Positions 16,472-24,049 of a stretch of 32,458 bases of DNA are shown in pieces. The stretch comes from Chloroflexota bacterium. GTDB lineage: Bacteria > Chloroflexota > UBA11872 > VXOZ01. The stretch spans positions 1 through 32,458 of the forward strand of contig JAJEAH010000081.1 in assembly GCA_022824225.1 (NCBI GenBank), in the 5' to 3' direction. The translations under genes were made by a program, and so were the position numbers. Numbering within the stretch: the first letter of the stretch is position 1; every line of letters begins with the position of its first letter. The notes below the pieces were generated by a model. The model ran no database searches. It was not told the origin of the DNA and was given only the letters and a program-made list of their open reading frames with translations.

Positions 16472-17749
16472 CTAGGCCTCTTTCGCCTCGCTCACCGCGT
16501 CGCTCAGGTCGTTTTTCGGCGTCTCGTCATCGTGCAACCAGATCTTGCGCACGGCCACGCCGAGTTCGCGGGTATCCGGCGATCCCGACACCTCCTGGGG
16601 ATTCCATGGCTCATCCCAGTGAAAGGCGACATCCAGGCGCTCTTCGGCATCCGGCGGCGCCGGAAACGTGAGCGTCTGCCACTCGCCCGGCGGCAATTGC
16701 AGGGGATGCTTGACCTCGTTCGTGTAGAAGGCGCCGGTTACGGTCCGCGCCAATTCCTGCGGCCCCGAAAAGAGCTGGACCGAGATGTACTTCTGCCCGC
16801 CAAACTTGAGGCGCGCCAACGCATCACGGCTCGTCCAGCGCACCTGCGGCGGCCAGTCCTCGCACGGATACCAGCCGCCGCCCAATTGGGGCACTTCGTT
16901 CTCTCCCATCACCACGGCGCTTTCGGACACCCGTCGATAGCCGTGCACGTCGGTGTAGAGTTCGTCGGGATAGCCGTAGCGGGGCTGGGACACGGCACGG
17001 GCGCGCACCAGGATCACGTCTTGCTGACCGCGCAGGAGCCCAATCCGCAGCGCGCCCCGCACGATGCCGTCCAGAAACGCGGGATGGTCGTATGAACCGT
17101 CATGAATGACGGTAGTCTCTTCCACCGCGTAGTTGCAGTGCGCCAGCAAGCGCCGCAATTCGCCGACACTGAACTCGCGGTTGTGCCGGGCATTTGAGCC
17201 GTGACCGGAAAACGGCGGGTAGATGTTCTTTCCGCTGAGGAATCTCAATATGTTCGTATAGCGGAAGGGGTTAGGCGTAGATATGATGAGCTGCCCTTCC
17301 GGCTTGAGCACCCGGTGAATCTCATAGAGCGTCCACGTGGGGTCGTAGGTCAGGTGCTCGATCACTTCGCAGTAGAGCACCAGGTCAAAGTGACCGTCGG
17401 GATAGGGAAGGGCATCGAGCTCAATGTTGGCGCCCTGAAACGACACAACTCTCCGAAAATCATGGGCGGGACTGGCAAGCGTCATCTTGCCGTCGTCTAC
17501 GGATAGCCAGTACGGCTCATTGAGGGCAGACAGGTCGAAGTCCGTGTAGCGCAGCAGGAGCGCCGTCATGAAGTACGGCGCGGCTCCGATCTCCAGGACG
17601 TTGGCGCGGGGCGGCAACGCATCCGGAATCATGGCAAACGTCGCGCCCAGCCGGTCGAGCGCCGTATTGAGGTAGTCGCTTACCTCCTTGCGCTGGGCAT
17701 GCTCCAAGGAGCGCAGAAACTCCAGCGCCTCCGAATAGTCCAAATTCAT
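16472..17749 (-). CDS. SAM-dependent methyltransferase with C-terminal shared beta-sandwich module
   Basis: This 425-aa protein has a class I methyltransferase domain (about 45-250). Motif I is VLEIGAAP (51-58), the acidic FDLVLYCEVIEHL lies at 121-133, and LIISTPNPFR at 154-163. Residues about 288-405 form a second module, starting GGGWYPCEDWPPQVRWT and ending PDTRELGVAVRKIWL. The same module occurs on the neighbouring Wzt-type ATPase and inside both glycosyltransferases. I infer that the module recognises the glycan, or keeps the enzymes together, and that the methyltransferase may modify or cap the chain. The start codon overlaps the stop of the upstream GT4 gene in an ATGA, implying translational coupling. 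An O- versus N-methylation target cannot be told. Confidence 0.85.
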   Translation of the reverse strand: MNLDYSEALEFLRSLEHAQRKEVSDYLNTALDRLGATFAMIPDALPPRANVLEIGAAPYFMTALLLRYTDFDLSALNEPYWLSVDDGKMTLASPAHDFRRVVSFQGANIELDALPYPDGHFDLVLYCEVIEHLTYDPTWTLYEIHRVLKPEGQLIISTPNPFRYTNILRFLSGKNIYPPFSGHGSNARHNREFSVGELRRLLAHCNYAVEETTVIHDGSYDHPAFLDGIVRGALRIGLLRGQQDVILVRARAVSQPRYGYPDELYTDVHGYRRVSESAVVMGENEVPQLGGGWYPCEDWPPQVRWTSRDALARLKFGGQKYISVQLFSGPQELARTVTGAFYTNEVKHPLQLPPGEWQTLTFPAPPDAEERLDVAFHWDEPWNPQEVSGSPDTRELGVAVRKIWLHDDETPKNDLSDAVSEAKEA

Positions 17750-19374
17750 GGGGTCGTGTCTTTTCTAGGCTCGTCCAATAAAGTGCGACCGCATACCACG
17801 TCGTCCACAAGCTCCCGGAGTCGCTGCGCAAACCGCTCTTCACTGAAGCGCTGCGCCCGCTCGATCGCCCCGGCGCGCAACTTGGCCAGCTCCGCCGCAT
17901 CCGAGACCGCAGCCATCGTGAATTCCTGTAATTCGGCCAGCGTGCGCCACAAGAATCCGCTGCGGCCGTGCTCGACGATTTCGGCCGGCCCGCCTATGCC
18001 CAACACTATGGGCACACAGCCGGCGGCCATGGCTTCCACCGGCGTAATCCCAAAGTGCTCGTAGCGCTCTGGGTAGCGCGTTTCGCTCTGGCCGAAGCCC
18101 GTGGCATGCCAGTAGAGGGTAGCATGGCTGTAGAGTTGGCGTAACGTGGCGTAGTCAACATTGGGGTGCAGCACCACGGGCAAACCTTCAGCCAGGCGTT
18201 TGACCCTTTGAAAGTACTCCTGGCTGAGACTATCCTGGGCCACGCCTCCCGCCAGATGCAGCTCCCATCCGACCAAGTCTTGCCGCGACAACGCGGCAAA
18301 AGCTTGCACCATCTCCGGGAACTTCTTCTCATGCCCTTGGGGAAAGAACCTGCCTACGCTCAGTATCATGCGGCGTTTCTCACCGGGTTGAAAGTCGCTG
18401 ACGGCAACAGGGGGATAAAGAATCTCGCCTCTCAAACCCCATGCTCGTTCCACCCAATCGCCAACGTACTGCGATATGGGGCAGAGCAGGTCGTACGTCC
18501 GAATGTAGTCCAAAGACGGGTTCTCCGGGATACCGTGCAGGCGCAAGCCCAGCTCCGGGAAGAACCGCTCGAACACGATTTCATACAGGTAGTAGCGCCA
18601 CGTGCGGGAGCGCACCGCGGCGACGGCAACGCCAACCTGGCGGTAGTCGTGTTCCTCTATACCGGCAATGCGGCCTGAGTAGGTCTCGCTGGAAAACTCC
18701 AGCCGCGCGCGGCCGTCTTGGATGCAGTCTTTGGGCAGGACGAACTCGACGTTCTCGTAGTCGCCTGTGCGCGTTTGCAGGGCGGTCTCGGCCAACACCC
18801 GCCCGCCGGAGGAGATCCGCAAGGGGACCGGCGCCCAGCCGTCGGGACGAAAAGACCCCGCCACGATCTGCATCGGTATGTCGCGCCGCCAGCCGGCAAA
18901 GGGCACCTCCACCACGGCCTTGCCGGCTGACCAACGGTACCAGCCTTTACCTAGCTCCTGGATAGCATAGAATCCCTCGCGGAACTGGGGCACGCTGAGT
19001 TCCCGCAACAGGTGCCGGCCAAGCCATTGCCGCAGGCGGCCATCCCAGGTGTGCATGCCGAGAAACGGAAAGTACACGAACATGATGCTGTGACGGGCTT
19101 GGCTGGGCACATACGAGGAGTGCGATCCATTGATGAAGAGGTCGTACTCCGCCGTCAAAGGTCCCATCAGGTCGAAAGGGAGGTCTTCGACACACCGCAA
19201 GCGCACGCGGGAGAGATCGATATTGAGTCTACTGCCGAGCGCGGCCAGATCGATGGGTCGATGGGTGATGAGGGTGACGTCATGGTCGGCAGCGAGCACT
19301 TTGGCCGCTACGCCGGTGTACCGCTCCGCGCCCCCTTGGGTATGCAGCCACCGGTTATAGATGCCTATGTTCAT
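17746..19374 (-). CDS. GT4-type glycosyltransferase with inserted beta-sandwich module
   Basis: This 542-aa protein is a GT-B fold glycosyltransferase. The N-terminal MNIGIYNRWLHTQGGAERY is a typical acceptor-domain start. The C-terminal GT4 donor domain runs from ILSVGRFF (about 337) to HFGITPVEAMAAGCVPIV, which carries the Glu-rich nucleotide-sugar motif. Between about residues 131 and 256 the acceptor half is interrupted by a module with the pattern GFYAIQ...YRWSAGKA and the ending HDYRQVGVAVAAV. These match the C-terminal modules of the neighbouring ATPase and methyltransferase. Typical GT4 enzymes are about 350-420 aa, so the extra length is explained by the insert. The ATG at 19374 was chosen from homology because no strong ribosome-binding site is seen. 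It begins 19 bp after the GT2 stop. Confidence 0.85.
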   Translation of the reverse strand: MNIGIYNRWLHTQGGAERYTGVAAKVLAADHDVTLITHRPIDLAALGSRLNIDLSRVRLRCVEDLPFDLMGPLTAEYDLFINGSHSSYVPSQARHSIMFVYFPFLGMHTWDGRLRQWLGRHLLRELSVPQFREGFYAIQELGKGWYRWSAGKAVVEVPFAGWRRDIPMQIVAGSFRPDGWAPVPLRISSGGRVLAETALQTRTGDYENVEFVLPKDCIQDGRARLEFSSETYSGRIAGIEEHDYRQVGVAVAAVRSRTWRYYLYEIVFERFFPELGLRLHGIPENPSLDYIRTYDLLCPISQYVGDWVERAWGLRGEILYPPVAVSDFQPGEKRRMILSVGRFFPQGHEKKFPEMVQAFAALSRQDLVGWELHLAGGVAQDSLSQEYFQRVKRLAEGLPVVLHPNVDYATLRQLYSHATLYWHATGFGQSETRYPERYEHFGITPVEAMAAGCVPIVLGIGGPAEIVEHGRSGFLWRTLAELQEFTMAAVSDAAELAKLRAGAIERAQRFSEERFAQRLRELVDDVVCGRTLLDEPRKDTTP

Positions 19375-19393
19375 GGCGTTACGCGCATGCCGT

Positions 19394-20845
19394 TTACCCC
19401 ACGTCGTCCTCGGCTGGAACGAGCCAGCGCTCGATTTCATCCTGGGACACTGTGCGCCTCTTCCGGATGGCCCTCCTGCTCGCTAGGACGCCCGGCGCAA
19501 GCGCGAGTAGCCGCGCGCAGACTTTCGCGCGGATCCACAGGCGACGCCAATGCGCGCCGCCGCCCGGCCGCCGCATGAGCAGTCCGCCGCCGGCTTGCGC
19601 CGCGTTCCACACCGTCTCGGCGGCATACCGGCGCAACTGCTGCAGGGCCAGCCGCCAGGGCGCGTTCTTCAAGAGCATGAGTAACCGGTTGAGGTCTACG
19701 TTATAGGTGAAAAGCGGCGACCACTCCCCCGCCGAGCCGCTGTGCACGTGGCGCACGCGTGCCTGGGGAACGTACCGGATCTGCCAGCCCTGGGCACGGG
19801 CGCGCCACGCCAAATCCATGTCCTCGTAGTACATGAAGAAACGCTCGTCGAAGAGGCCCACGGCCTCGAGCATTTCGCGGCGCAATAGGCACGCTGCGCC
19901 GTTGAAGTGAAAGACGTCCGGGTCCGCATCGTATCGTCCGTCGTCCCACGACGGATAGACGTGTCCGTGTTCGACCTGCGTGCCTCGGTCCAGGCCGGAA
20001 CCATCAGGCAGAATACACGAACCAGCGCTCTGCAGCAGGGGTCTGGCATGGTGACCCACCCACGGGAGGAGCGGGACACACACCTTCCCCGGCACCGCAG
20101 CCGCCGCGCCCGCGTAGACGGTCTGGCCGCCGCAGGTTATCGCCACGCGCACGGGCCGGTTGTCCGGGCGCCACGCGGCCAGCATGAGTTCCAGGGTCCG
20201 GCTGCGAGACTCGGCGCGCGCCGCCGGCACGCCCAGCACCGCGCGTTCGCCGGTCCAGTGTATGACATGGCCGGCCGCGTCGCGTTCCGGCGCGTAGAAA
20301 CCGTTTAGCAGCCGCACTTCCCGGTCCCACGCGTCGCTCCCTTCCCGAACGTGGGCAGCGTAGACTTGCACTCCCAGCGTCCGTTCGTCCGGTGAGCCGG
20401 TTTCCGCCTGGGGCGAGAACGTCTCGCAGCGCAGCGCGAGGGGCGCGTAGTCGTTCATGTACACCAGCTTGGCCGTGGTGGCGCCTAGTTTCCGGTCGGC
20501 CAGCATTGGGTCTATCAGGCGCCGCAACCAGTCGGCCTGCACGGCCGTATCGGAATTGAGCAGCGCCACGAACGGCGAACCATTGGCCTGTATTGCCCGG
20601 TTATTGCCCTTGCCAAAACCCAGATTGCCGCCATTGTCCAGCACCCGTACACCGGGAAAGCGCTCCCGCACCCAGGCGGGCGAGCCATCAGTGGACGCGT
20701 TGTCAGCCACGATGACGTTGAACCGGTCGGTTGGATACGTGGTCTGCAGCAGCGCTGTCAAGCAGCGGCCCAGGAATCGCTTACCGTTCCAATTCAGCAC
20801 GATGACGGTTATGTCCGGCAGACCGCAGTCCCTAGAATTCGTCAT
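19394..20845 (-). CDS. GT2 family glycosyltransferase with split beta-sandwich insert
   Basis: This 483-aa protein is a GT-A fold inverting glycosyltransferase resembling the rhamnosyltransferase group. VIVLNWNGKRFL is at 14-25, VADNASTDGS at 46-55, the NSDT metal/nucleotide site at 97-100, and the catalytic-region YYEDMDLAWRA at 339-349. Between them, residues about 132-292 are an insertion absent from ordinary GT2 enzymes. It contains first a tail-like motif SPDERTLGVQV (151-161), then a head-like motif GFYAPE...HWTGERA (182-202). Both are recognisable in the modules of the neighbouring proteins, but here they are in swapped order. The C-terminus is basic without a clear membrane anchor. 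The ATG at 20845 is preferred over the TTG at 20854. Donor and acceptor sugars are unknown. Confidence 0.85.
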   Translation of the reverse strand: MTNSRDCGLPDITVIVLNWNGKRFLGRCLTALLQTTYPTDRFNVIVADNASTDGSPAWVRERFPGVRVLDNGGNLGFGKGNNRAIQANGSPFVALLNSDTAVQADWLRRLIDPMLADRKLGATTAKLVYMNDYAPLALRCETFSPQAETGSPDERTLGVQVYAAHVREGSDAWDREVRLLNGFYAPERDAAGHVIHWTGERAVLGVPAARAESRSRTLELMLAAWRPDNRPVRVAITCGGQTVYAGAAAAVPGKVCVPLLPWVGHHARPLLQSAGSCILPDGSGLDRGTQVEHGHVYPSWDDGRYDADPDVFHFNGAACLLRREMLEAVGLFDERFFMYYEDMDLAWRARAQGWQIRYVPQARVRHVHSGSAGEWSPLFTYNVDLNRLLMLLKNAPWRLALQQLRRYAAETVWNAAQAGGGLLMRRPGGGAHWRRLWIRAKVCARLLALAPGVLASRRAIRKRRTVSQDEIERWLVPAEDDVG

Positions 20846-20927
20846 TGACGTCAATCATCCGGCTATGTACATCCAGATTCGCGGCGTGAGACAATAACAC
20901 ACTTTGAGACACGCCCCCGTCGGCAAG

Positions 20928-22610
20928 CTACTCCAGCCAGACCTCGCGCACAGCGACGCCGAGTTGGCGTCGGTCGCGCGTCCGGCCCTTGACCGGCGAC
21001 GACATGGGATTTTCCACCACTATGTCAATCCGTAGCGGCTGCGTGTTCGCGAGGCCGTCGAGCGGAAAGACATATCGTTCGAAGTCCGGTGTTGCGAGGG
21101 AAAAGTCACCGATGTTCTTGCCGTCGACCAGTATGTGGCCGGTAACCGGCTCACCGCTGTGGTGCGGACGGCACATGGCGATTCCCAAGAGTTGCGCCGT
21201 GCCCGCGTTTTGCAGATAGAGTCCGGCACGTCCCGCCGTCCAGCGCACGTGCGGCGGCCAGTTCTCGAGTGGAAACCAGCCTTCGGCCAGGTATTCCTCT
21301 TCATCGTGGCCCATGGCAATGTGATCCGGCACAGGACTCCATGGCACCGCCGGGGCAGTGGGCGCAACAGAATTCGCTACAGCATCCCCCGCCGCCGCCC
21401 GCCACGTCTGCTGGAGCGCCAGCATCCCCGTTTGGGCTGCCTCGGTGGGGGTTACGACAAATCGTGTGACGTTCTTCCACATGTCTAACGGTTTTCGCCA
21501 GTCCTCCCTGGGCCAGATGCCAACACTCACGTCAAAGCCTCCGGCATGGAGCGGCAGCTCCGGCAGCACGCACAGCAACTCGCCCGTGCCCTTGGGCAAG
21601 GCAAAGGTCTTGCCAGCCGCCGCGCTGTGGCTGCCTGCCACGAATACGCCGTCGGCGCGGTGAATGCCAATACCGACGCTGGCCGCCGGGACCGTCGTGC
21701 TCGCCGTGTAGGCAATGCGAACCCACACGTCCGCCCCCGGCGCTACCTCGACCACGGGCTTGCCGTCTGTATCTGTCACCGTCACGCTCTCGATCGCAAC
21801 ATCGCCGCTGCCCCAGCGCATCTGCCGCGTGTCGGTGACCTCCGGCAGCCGGCTCGAGGCAACTGCCACCTGCAAATCGCCGCGATGCCGCGCTTCCGCC
21901 AGATACGCGTTGATTACTGCATCCGGCGGGCCGTACATGCGGGCCTGTCCGCCTTCCACCCAGAGCACCTCGTCGCAAAAGCGGCCGACGGACGTTAGGT
22001 CGTGGGACACGAACACGATGGTCATGCCCGCCTGCTTGAACTCGCTCAGCTTGGCAAAGCACTTCTGGCGAAAAGGCATGTCGCCCACGGCCAGCACCTC
22101 GTCGATGACCAGCAACTCCGGGTCCACGTGCACAGCCACGGCGAAGCCCAGCCGCATATACATGCCGGAAGAGTAGTGCTTCACCGGCTCATCGATGAAG
22201 CGTTCCAGGCCCGCGAAGGCAACGATTTCATCGAAGCGCTGCCGCATCTGCTTGCGGGGCAAGCCAAGGAACGCGCCGTTGAGGAAGACGTTCTCTCGTC
22301 CCGTAAGGTCGGGATGGAAGCCGGCCCCCAATTCGAGCAGGGCCGACACACGACCCCGGACATCCACCGTGCCGCCGGTCGGCTCCAGCACGCGGCACAT
22401 GAGCTTGAGTATCGTGCTCTTGCCGGCGCCGTTGCGTCCGATGACGCCGAGGGTGCGGCCGGCTTCGAGGTTGAAGGACAAATCGCGCAGCGCCCAAAAC
22501 TCTTCGCGCGAACTGTCGCGCCGCAGCCAGCCAATGACGGTCTCCTGCACCGTGCGGCGCTGGCGCACGATGAAGCGCTTGGAAACACTGTTGAACCGCA
22601 CTGCTCGCAT
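20928..22610 (-). CDS. wzt: Wzt-type polysaccharide ABC exporter ATPase with two C-terminal domains
   Basis: This 560-aa protein has a full ABC ATPase domain (1-240): Walker A GRNGAGKST at 58-66, signature YSSGM at 146-150, Walker B LLVIDE at 166-171 and the H-loop His203. Residues about 265-390 look like the Wzt C-terminal immunoglobulin-like domain that binds the end of a finished glycan in O8/O9a-type systems. A Pro/Ala linker (about 400-430) leads to a third domain (441-560). It begins EGWFPLENWPPHVRWT and ends DRRQLGVAVREVWL, and is homologous by eye to the modules on the downstream enzymes. Ordinary Wzt proteins end after the second domain. It starts directly after the permease stop, with GGAAGAG as ribosome-binding site. 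A TagH-like teichoic-acid role is the alternative. Confidence 0.9.
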   Translation of the reverse strand: MRAVRFNSVSKRFIVRQRRTVQETVIGWLRRDSSREEFWALRDLSFNLEAGRTLGVIGRNGAGKSTILKLMCRVLEPTGGTVDVRGRVSALLELGAGFHPDLTGRENVFLNGAFLGLPRKQMRQRFDEIVAFAGLERFIDEPVKHYSSGMYMRLGFAVAVHVDPELLVIDEVLAVGDMPFRQKCFAKLSEFKQAGMTIVFVSHDLTSVGRFCDEVLWVEGGQARMYGPPDAVINAYLAEARHRGDLQVAVASSRLPEVTDTRQMRWGSGDVAIESVTVTDTDGKPVVEVAPGADVWVRIAYTASTTVPAASVGIGIHRADGVFVAGSHSAAAGKTFALPKGTGELLCVLPELPLHAGGFDVSVGIWPREDWRKPLDMWKNVTRFVVTPTEAAQTGMLALQQTWRAAAGDAVANSVAPTAPAVPWSPVPDHIAMGHDEEEYLAEGWFPLENWPPHVRWTAGRAGLYLQNAGTAQLLGIAMCRPHHSGEPVTGHILVDGKNIGDFSLATPDFERYVFPLDGLANTQPLRIDIVVENPMSSPVKGRTRDRRQLGVAVREVWLE

Positions 22611-23471
22611 CTATATCTCTTCCACGAACCTGCTGGCATAGTGGCGGAAGAGCCAAAGGCCGATCCAGAGCAGCACCATTGCCGTCGCGGCGGTTAGGAG
22701 GATGTGCTTGAAACGCCACAACGGCCAGCCGTAGAGCAGCGCATACCGGTACCCCTGAATCAATGCCGCCATAGGATTGAGCATGTAGACCCAGCGCCAG
22801 AGGTCAAGTCCCAAGATCTCTCTATTTGGGATTCGTTCCAGCACGTATACGATGGGCGTAAGGAAGAACCAGGCAATCAACGCCACGTTCATAATCGACT
22901 CAAGATCGCGAAAGTAGACGTTCAGAGCGGCCACGATCAGCGCCAGTCCCAGCATCAGTAGTACCTGCACGAGCACCAGCGCCGGCAACCACCACACGTT
23001 ACTCGTCAACGGAATGCGAAACGCAATGGCAAAGATGAAATAGAGCGGCAGCGCCAACAAGAAATGGATGAGGTTCGCCACGACCACGGAGAGGGGGAGA
23101 ATCTCCCGGGGAAAATACACTTTCGTCAGCAGGTCGCGGTTGCCCGTAATGCTCGACATGGCCCGCGTGATGACGTCCGAGGTGAAGTTCCATATCAACA
23201 AGCCGCTCAGAACATAGATGGGAAAGTTAAGGACCACCGGCTCGATGCCTTCAGGATCGCTCAGAGCGCGGAAGACCAGGGAAAAGACGAGCATCATCAG
23301 AAGGGGATTGAGCAGCGACCACGCGAAGCCGAGCACGGAATTCCGGTAGCGCACCTTGATGTCGCGGACTACCAGATTGGCGAGCAATTCCCGATAGGCC
23401 CACCACTCACGACTGATTGCCCACAGGCGCAGCGGGTTGGGGAAGAGGATGAAGGTGCGAATTGCGTTCAT
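22611..23471 (-). CDS. wzm: ABC-2 type polysaccharide exporter permease (Wzm/TagG-like)
   Basis: This 286-aa membrane protein has the ABC-2 permease pattern. An N-terminal amphipathic stretch with YRELLANLVVRDIKVRYRNS precedes about six membrane segments. The conserved loop KVYFPREILPLS is near residues 125-136, and the segment FLTPIVYVLERIP is near 216-228. With the ATPase encoded directly downstream it should form a channel that carries lipid-linked glycan across the membrane. The ATG at 23471 overlaps the thpR stop as ATGA. A GTG at 23498 would extend it by nine residues into thpR and is less likely. Confidence 0.92.
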   Translation of the reverse strand: MNAIRTFILFPNPLRLWAISREWWAYRELLANLVVRDIKVRYRNSVLGFAWSLLNPLLMMLVFSLVFRALSDPEGIEPVVLNFPIYVLSGLLIWNFTSDVITRAMSSITGNRDLLTKVYFPREILPLSVVVANLIHFLLALPLYFIFAIAFRIPLTSNVWWLPALVLVQVLLMLGLALIVAALNVYFRDLESIMNVALIAWFFLTPIVYVLERIPNREILGLDLWRWVYMLNPMAALIQGYRYALLYGWPLWRFKHILLTAATAMVLLWIGLWLFRHYASRFVEEI

Positions 23472-24049
23472 GTGTTTCGCAAGGGAAACCGCCGGCACAC
23501 CGTGTACTCGGCGCCGCCGGGACGCAACTCGCTCCGCATGAGCGCCACACTTTCCACCGTAAATTCCATCGCTTCAGAGTCCTCTAGCGCCGCGACCCAA
23601 CTCTCCAATTGCTCCGCCTCCCACGCGGCGATGCCCTGGCGCACGCGCGCCAGCGTAACATGAGGCGCAAGCGGGCGTCTTTCCCGGTCGAAACCACTGT
23701 GCGCCAACAAGCATTCGGTCTTCTCGTGCAACTGCCGCAAGCTATCGTTTGGGTCCGCCAACACGCCCCACACCATGTGCGGCCGCCCGCGGCGGCGGAC
23801 GATGCGCACGCCGGATACGGTCACTGGGAAAGGCGCGCTGCCGGTAACGACACGTTCCATCACCTCAACAATTACGGTTCGTCTCTCGCCAGTGACCTCA
23901 CCGAGAAACTTGAGCGTCATGTGCAGGTTTTCGCTGCGGACCCAGCGCACGCGCTCCGCTCGCTCCGCCGCCGGACGCACGCGTTCGGTCAAACTATCTC
24001 GCACGCATTCTGGCAAGGCGATGGCGAGAAACAGGCGTTCGGTGTTCAC
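23468..24049 (-). CDS. thpR: RNA 2',3'-cyclic phosphodiesterase (2H family, LigT/ThpR-like)
   Basis: This 193-aa cytosolic protein belongs to the 2H phosphoesterase superfamily. Family members hydrolyse 2',3'-cyclic phosphate ends of RNA to 2'-phosphate. Both catalytic HxT motifs are present: HMTLKFLG (His43/Thr45) and HVTLARV (His130/Thr132). Spacing and length fit ThpR. The GTG at 24049, with GGGAA close upstream, gives the usual short N-terminus. A TTG at 24067 is possible. It is the first gene of the glycan-export operon and overlaps the permease start by four bases, an unexpected partner for an RNA enzyme. Confidence 0.9.
   Translation of the reverse strand: MNTERLFLAIALPECVRDSLTERVRPAAERAERVRWVRSENLHMTLKFLGEVTGERRTVIVEVMERVVTGSAPFPVTVSGVRIVRRRGRPHMVWGVLADPNDSLRQLHEKTECLLAHSGFDRERRPLAPHVTLARVRQGIAAWEAEQLESWVAALEDSEAMEFTVESVALMRSELRPGGAEYTVCRRFPLRNT

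Follow-up and report, generated by a model that had tools for sequence, protein, structure and literature searches.

A predicted circularly permuted beta-sandwich module within the GT-A catalytic domain of a Chloroflexota GT2 glycosyltransferase

Wzt proteins of characterised ABC-transporter-dependent glycan systems recognise the capped end of the glycan by means of a carbohydrate-binding domain (PMC9445017). Complexes among the synthesis enzymes are documented for O-antigen synthesis of this type, and the terminator of Klebsiella pneumoniae O7 has a predicted carbohydrate-binding module (CBM), which is known in no other terminator (PMC11231755). Other precedents concern the rearrangement of domains. 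Domain insertion is found in 20% of multidomain proteins and is usually considered apart from circular permutation (PMC13114784). An engineered, circularly permuted starch-binding domain, RoCBM21, still folds and binds, with improved affinity (PMC3511584).

The window analysed here is a stretch of 32,458 nucleotides from a Chloroflexota bacterium. It encodes a GT2 in which both phenomena, insertion and permutation, act on one domain.

Gene run and borders of the insert

A run of minus-strand genes in the window encodes an ABC-transporter-dependent glycan pathway, with Wzm, Wzt, GT2, GT4, and a SAM methyltransferase (Table 1). We located an undescribed module in Wzt, GT4, and the methyltransferase with a motif search and with a profile derived from three copies. 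The order wzt-GT2-GT4 is kept across the class, as are the modules in Wzt and GT4. Wzt presents two tandem C-terminal beta domains, Wzt_C and then the module. The Wzt_C model matches residues 263-397 of this protein and not the module at residues 436-560.

The GT2 reading frame can also start at an ATG (position 20845), giving 483 aa. Three Pfam families match this protein above their curated cut-offs. PF13641 (E 4.9e-22) and PF00535 (E 1.5e-19) lie before the insert, and PF13632 (E 1.8e-11) lies after it. The NSDT motif is at residues 100-103 (DNA 20546-20557, minus strand), and EDMD is at residues 344-347 (DNA 19814-19825, minus strand). In 49 sequences, N100, D102, and D347 were invariant, and E344 and D345 nearly so. 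By family match and catalytic motifs, the enzyme is assigned to the GT2 / GT-A glycosyltransferases, with a predicted transferase activity. Both motifs sit outside the insert; the initial annotation had placed it between them with both retained, and this holds.

Insert-free homologues align with the GT2 at residues 13-132 and restart at 266-274, with almost nothing between. The insert therefore spans approximately residues 134-272. Its length, about 139 residues, is shorter than the 160 or so first estimated.

Table 1. Features of the glycan gene run and of the GT2 insert (window positions)
Feature	Position	Strand	Evidence or remark
Wzm-type ABC-2 permease, membrane partner of Wzt	22611..23498	-	PF01061, E 3.5e-21
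Wzt ATPase gene	20928-22610	-	Wzt_C PF14524, E 3.7e-16, residues 263-397
Normal-order module, C-terminus of Wzt after Wzt_C	20931..21314	-	AlphaFold2 of module: pLDDT 87.3, pTM 0.84
GT2-family glycosyltransferase with permuted insert	19397..20854 (ORF 19394-20854)	-	486 aa from TTG
GT-A core, first half, residues 13-133	20456..20818	-	Alignment to insert-free homologues
Whole inserted permuted module, residues 134-272	20039..20455	-	Permuted profile, full-length, E 3.3e-44 (profile includes this insert's own sequence)
Tail segment, placed first, residues 134-171, strands 7 and 8	20342..20455	-	Normal-order profile 96-125
Linker joining the former C- and N-termini of the module, residues 172-184	20303..20341	-	Rotation cuts
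Head and middle segments, residues 185-272, strands 1-6	20039..20302	-	Normal-order profile 6-69
GT-A core, second half (residue 273 onward), and C-terminal helices	19397..20038	-	Alignment to insert-free homologues
GT4 gene	17746-19440	-	PF00534 (Glycos_transf_1) at residues 353-500
Normal-order module inserted upstream of Glycos_transf_1 in GT4	18604..18978	-	
SAM methyltransferase gene	16472-17749	-	PF08241, E 2.2e-11
Normal-order module, C-terminus of SAM methyltransferase	16532..16909	-	

One module in rotated order

The normal order of the module is head-middle-tail, with strands 1-8 in a predicted beta-sandwich of about 125 residues. The normal-order profile was made from 49 module sequences, none of them a GT2 insert. 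Against the window GT2, it matched two separate blocks in exchanged order, with a whole-protein E of 3.7e-10. Model positions 96-125 matched residues 139-169, and positions 6-69 followed at residues 181-248. The tail segment (LALRCETFSPQ...DERTLGVQV) is thus placed before the head, which contains GFYAPE...HWT. The initial annotation had read this order from SPDERTLGVQV preceding the GFYAPE...HWT motif, and the profile bears it out, with about 20 residues from the end of one to the start of the other.

Rotation was assayed by trying every possible cut on each of 29 distinct inserts. All 29 scored higher when rotated (19.7-49.5 bits) than in native order (11.8-27.6 bits). In each of them, the best cut separated the LGV tail motif from the head; in the window insert, it lies after residue 170. 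This insert rose from 23.9 bits to 47.2 bits (E 1.6e-16 for the single sequence). Once rotated, it covers profile positions 6-125 one time, in a single alignment. Among 580 shuffled inserts, for which a cut was tried every three residues, the highest score was 7.0 bits. In the reciprocal comparison, a profile of permuted inserts matched the GT2s of this family in one piece. Conversely, nearly all modules of Wzt, GT4, methyltransferases, and PMT-like proteins were matched by it in two pieces, with the order reversed.

The amino acids D156, R158, L160, and G161 of the tail are invariant in all 29 inserts. Likewise, G185, E190, and W200, across the junction from the tail, are invariant in the same 29. 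In the 49 normal-order modules, D114, R116, and G119 do not vary. Since tail residues are invariant in permuted and normal-order modules, the tail constellation is kept in both orders. These invariant residues may be structural rather than involved in binding.

The AlphaFold2 model of the full GT2 had a mean pLDDT of 93.1 and a pTM of 0.91. In the normal-order module of Wzt, strands 1-8 are at 23-26, 29-34, 42-48, 57-63, 66-73, 79-84, 94-100, and 121-127. DSSP of the GT2 model places strands 1-6 at residues 197-201, 204-210, 219-226, 235-241, 244-251, and 256-262. Strand 8 is at 163-171, and strand 7 is the second half of a strand at 123-143, predicted to be continuous with a GT-A strand. By sequence alignment and the DSSP order of the predicted models, the eight strands correspond one to one, in the chain order 7, 8, 1-6 in the GT2. 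The module is opened in the loop connecting strands 6 and 7, and a short linker joins its old ends. The same elements are thus present in rotated order in the predicted models.

The initial annotation had hesitated between a circular permutation and two incomplete modules in tandem, and had left the choice between one sandwich and two halves to structure prediction. The permutation stands. Each piece as half of a different domain would agree with a tail that precedes the head in the chain, and a permutation could plausibly have arisen from a tandem duplication that lost its outer halves. However, the two pieces are complementary and make up one module with eight strands, and no complete tandem copy or intermediate was seen at this site among the 29 inserts. 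We consider two half-modules very improbable and unsupported. Equally improbable is an ordinary, lineage-specific GT2 loop extension sharing short motifs by chance. Loops are common in GT-A enzymes, and the insert has no full-length match to the module unless it is rotated. Nevertheless, the rotated match, the shuffled controls, and the reciprocal profiles refute this reading, which the initial annotation had named as the outcome that would overturn its own. All parts of the module are present once, in the order tail, head, middle. We conclude with high confidence that the insert is one complete, circularly permuted module.

No Pfam or NCBIfam model covers the module in the scanned hosts, and the 49 modules were also scanned with Pfam. 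No Pfam family recurs among them, and PF14524 matches none; a single member matches CBM60 at E 0.045. In a sequence search, the module profile matched no PDB chain at E<=10. By sequence, the module does not belong to a known CBM family. Foldseek searches with the normal-order module retrieved mainly CBMs and sugar-binding domains, among them CBM51, CBM36, CBM35, CBM29, and a lectin-like sugar-binding domain. This similarity is at the level of the fold only (TM mostly 0.40-0.61, 6-16% identity). A beta-sandwich shared with CBMs was found at these moderate TM values for the normal-order module only.

Distribution and history of the permuted insert

In 400 Chloroflexota genomes, we found the full-length permuted order at 28 loci, which are spread over 27 of the genomes and are always in this GT2. 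Other matches of the permuted profile in the 400 genomes are partial and fall within positions 38-128. A comparison of insertion points among homologues, suggested in the initial annotation, gave the same site and a conserved permuted order in the 28 loci.

The normal-order profile matches 77 of the 400 genomes. Its hosts include PMT-like membrane proteins and additional GT4s and methyltransferases. Outside Chloroflexota, it matches the genome of a Syntrophaceae MAG (L032). Seven loci from other Chloroflexota families (L202, L204, L206, L207, L208, L212, and L215) have the undescribed module in proteins of about 690-955 aa. It is C-terminal in these proteins, and once near the N-terminus; several of them have PMT-type glycosyltransferase matches. 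A second GT4 of the same genome, outside the window (L198:4414-6045, contig C4), presents an inserted normal-order module. A different GT2 (L010:3734-5431) has a normal-order module after its catalytic domain and adjoins a GT2 with the permuted insert. Both topologies are therefore found in neighbouring GT2 genes at L010. In four genomes of the same genus (G033, G077, G157, and G301), the permuted GT2 is missing and the module has no match, which makes the distribution of the cluster across the genus patchy.

The family f4 has a GT2 at the same locus without the insert, leaving about 9 residues where the insert-bearing GT2 has 141. This orthologue is approximately 50% identical to the insert-bearing GT2 on both sides of the site. 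The f4 genes are L150:5469-6506, L151:5353-6624, L163:6193-9111, L210:4633-7674, and L214:4322-7363, and their Wzt and GT4 keep the modules. At L163, L210, and L214, GT2 and GT4 share a single open frame of about 1000 aa.

The host tree was computed without the insert columns. The absence of the insert from f4 at the same locus could mean repeated insertion of the permuted module, with f4 never having had it. However, f4 is nested among the insert-bearing GT2s (support 98/91 and 100/97), and a tree that groups the insert-bearers together with f4 outside is rejected (AU p 0.001-0.002). The insertion site and the permutation are identical in all insert-bearing members, which also argues against repeated insertion; we regard it as improbable. 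The host tree needs two changes, a gain and then a loss. Because f4 is nested, two changes suffice, and the grouping of insert-bearers is rejected, one gain and one precise loss account for the distribution. The permuted insert very probably had a single origin in the ancestor of the GT2 family. It would have arisen once, been inherited with the wzt-GT2-GT4 order, and been cleanly lost in f4. This family keeps the transferase, so the insert is dispensable in some members. As a conjecture for the genetic route, the module could have been duplicated in tandem and then have lost the two outer halves, which would give the tail-head order. In the module tree, the modules of Wzt, of methyltransferases, and of the permuted GT2s are each on one side of a branch, and the branch of the permuted modules is weak (support 69).

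The GT2s of three gut Eubacterium loci (L012-L014, e.g. L013:7686-8942) group within the insert-bearing clade, and at the same site they have an insert of 111 residues. Their adjoining GT4 shows no module. The HHalign score of this insert against the permuted module was 16.6, while shuffled sequences had a mean of 10.4 and a maximum of 18.6. It may be a worn-down permuted module, and the three loci were left out of the permuted-insert counts. No further member turned up among 249 scanned genomes of the phylum of Eubacterium.

Possible role and comparison with known systems

The profiles and predicted models place one complete module in a loop of the GT-A catalytic domain. The opening between strands 6 and 7 gives it new ends, and these enter the core. 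The hosts of the module handle glycans (Wzt, GT2, GT4, and PMT-type proteins), and methyltransferases are also among them. We lean towards a CBM that would recognise the glycan of the cluster. The copies in Wzt, GT2, GT4, and the methyltransferase might hold or check the same polymer. Elongation, methylation, and export would then act on one recognised glycan. Such coordination is plausible, although we stop short of calling it probable. The permuted attachment in the GT2 might hold the putative binding site in a rigid position on the catalytic domain, possibly close to the acceptor end. More speculative, and rather unlikely in its full form, is the idea of an undescribed glycan-recognition module shared by the whole pathway and permuted in the GT2 so that it is rigidly built in as part of the acceptor site.

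Beta-sandwiches serve also as interaction or oligomerisation domains. The main rival keeps the same anatomy and takes the module for a protein-protein docking or oligomerisation domain. The copies in Wzt, GT2, GT4, and the methyltransferase would then bind each other and tether synthesis to the exporter. The presence of the module in four consecutive genes of one cluster is consistent with it. So are the role-specific groups of the module tree, which would follow if each copy had a partner of its own. The carbohydrate-binding domains of known Wzt proteins dimerise by exchange of C-terminal strands (PMC9445017), and the documented complexes of O-antigen synthesis point the same way (PMC11231755). 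However, the module is also found in proteins outside such clusters, namely PMT-like membrane proteins and other GT4s, and its structural neighbours are mostly carbohydrate-binding domains. Docking seems rather unlikely. The explanation as a whole, a permuted module of single origin in a GT-A loop with putative carbohydrate binding to a shared glycan, appears fairly probable to us.

Permutation and insertion are each known, and their combination in a glycosyltransferase appears new. Among the papers searched, we found no precedent for a GT-A enzyme with a permuted or inserted carbohydrate-binding domain, which does not prove its absence. The initial annotation had called an insertion in a GT-A core unusual. 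This applies to the insertion of a permuted domain and not to domain insertion in general. A further outcome is a module that is widespread in the glycan-building proteins of Chloroflexota and undescribed in Pfam. The gene cluster and f4 supply natural controls: an unpermuted terminal module (Wzt and methyltransferase), an unpermuted inserted one (GT4), a permuted inserted one (GT2), and an orthologue that has lost the insert (f4). For this reason, why the domain is permuted on insertion is directly testable.

Compared with known systems, Wzt_C (PF14524) is, like the module, a beta-sandwich on ABC-transporter-dependent glycan machinery. However, the module is also present in GT2, GT4, methyltransferases, and PMT-like proteins, and it is permuted in GT2. 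CBM51, CBM36, CBM35, CBM29, and CBM27 have an overall fold like that of the predicted normal-order module (Foldseek probability 1.00). CBM36 gives the best TM, up to 0.61, and the identity to these beta-sandwich CBMs is about 8-15%. GalNAc-T and GlfT2 have GT-A catalytic domains like that of the GT2 and are among the top Foldseek hits. Their extra beta domain, a lectin domain in GalNAc-T and an N-terminal barrel in GlfT2, is terminal, and neither is known to be permuted. RoCBM21 is engineered and free-standing, whereas the GT2 insert is natural, conserved, and embedded in a catalytic domain (PMC3511584). The O7 terminator resembles the GT2 in fusing a CBM-like domain to a glycan-modifying enzyme of an ABC-transporter-dependent pathway (PMC11231755). 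Here, in contrast, four successive proteins have the module, which is both inserted and permuted in the GT2.
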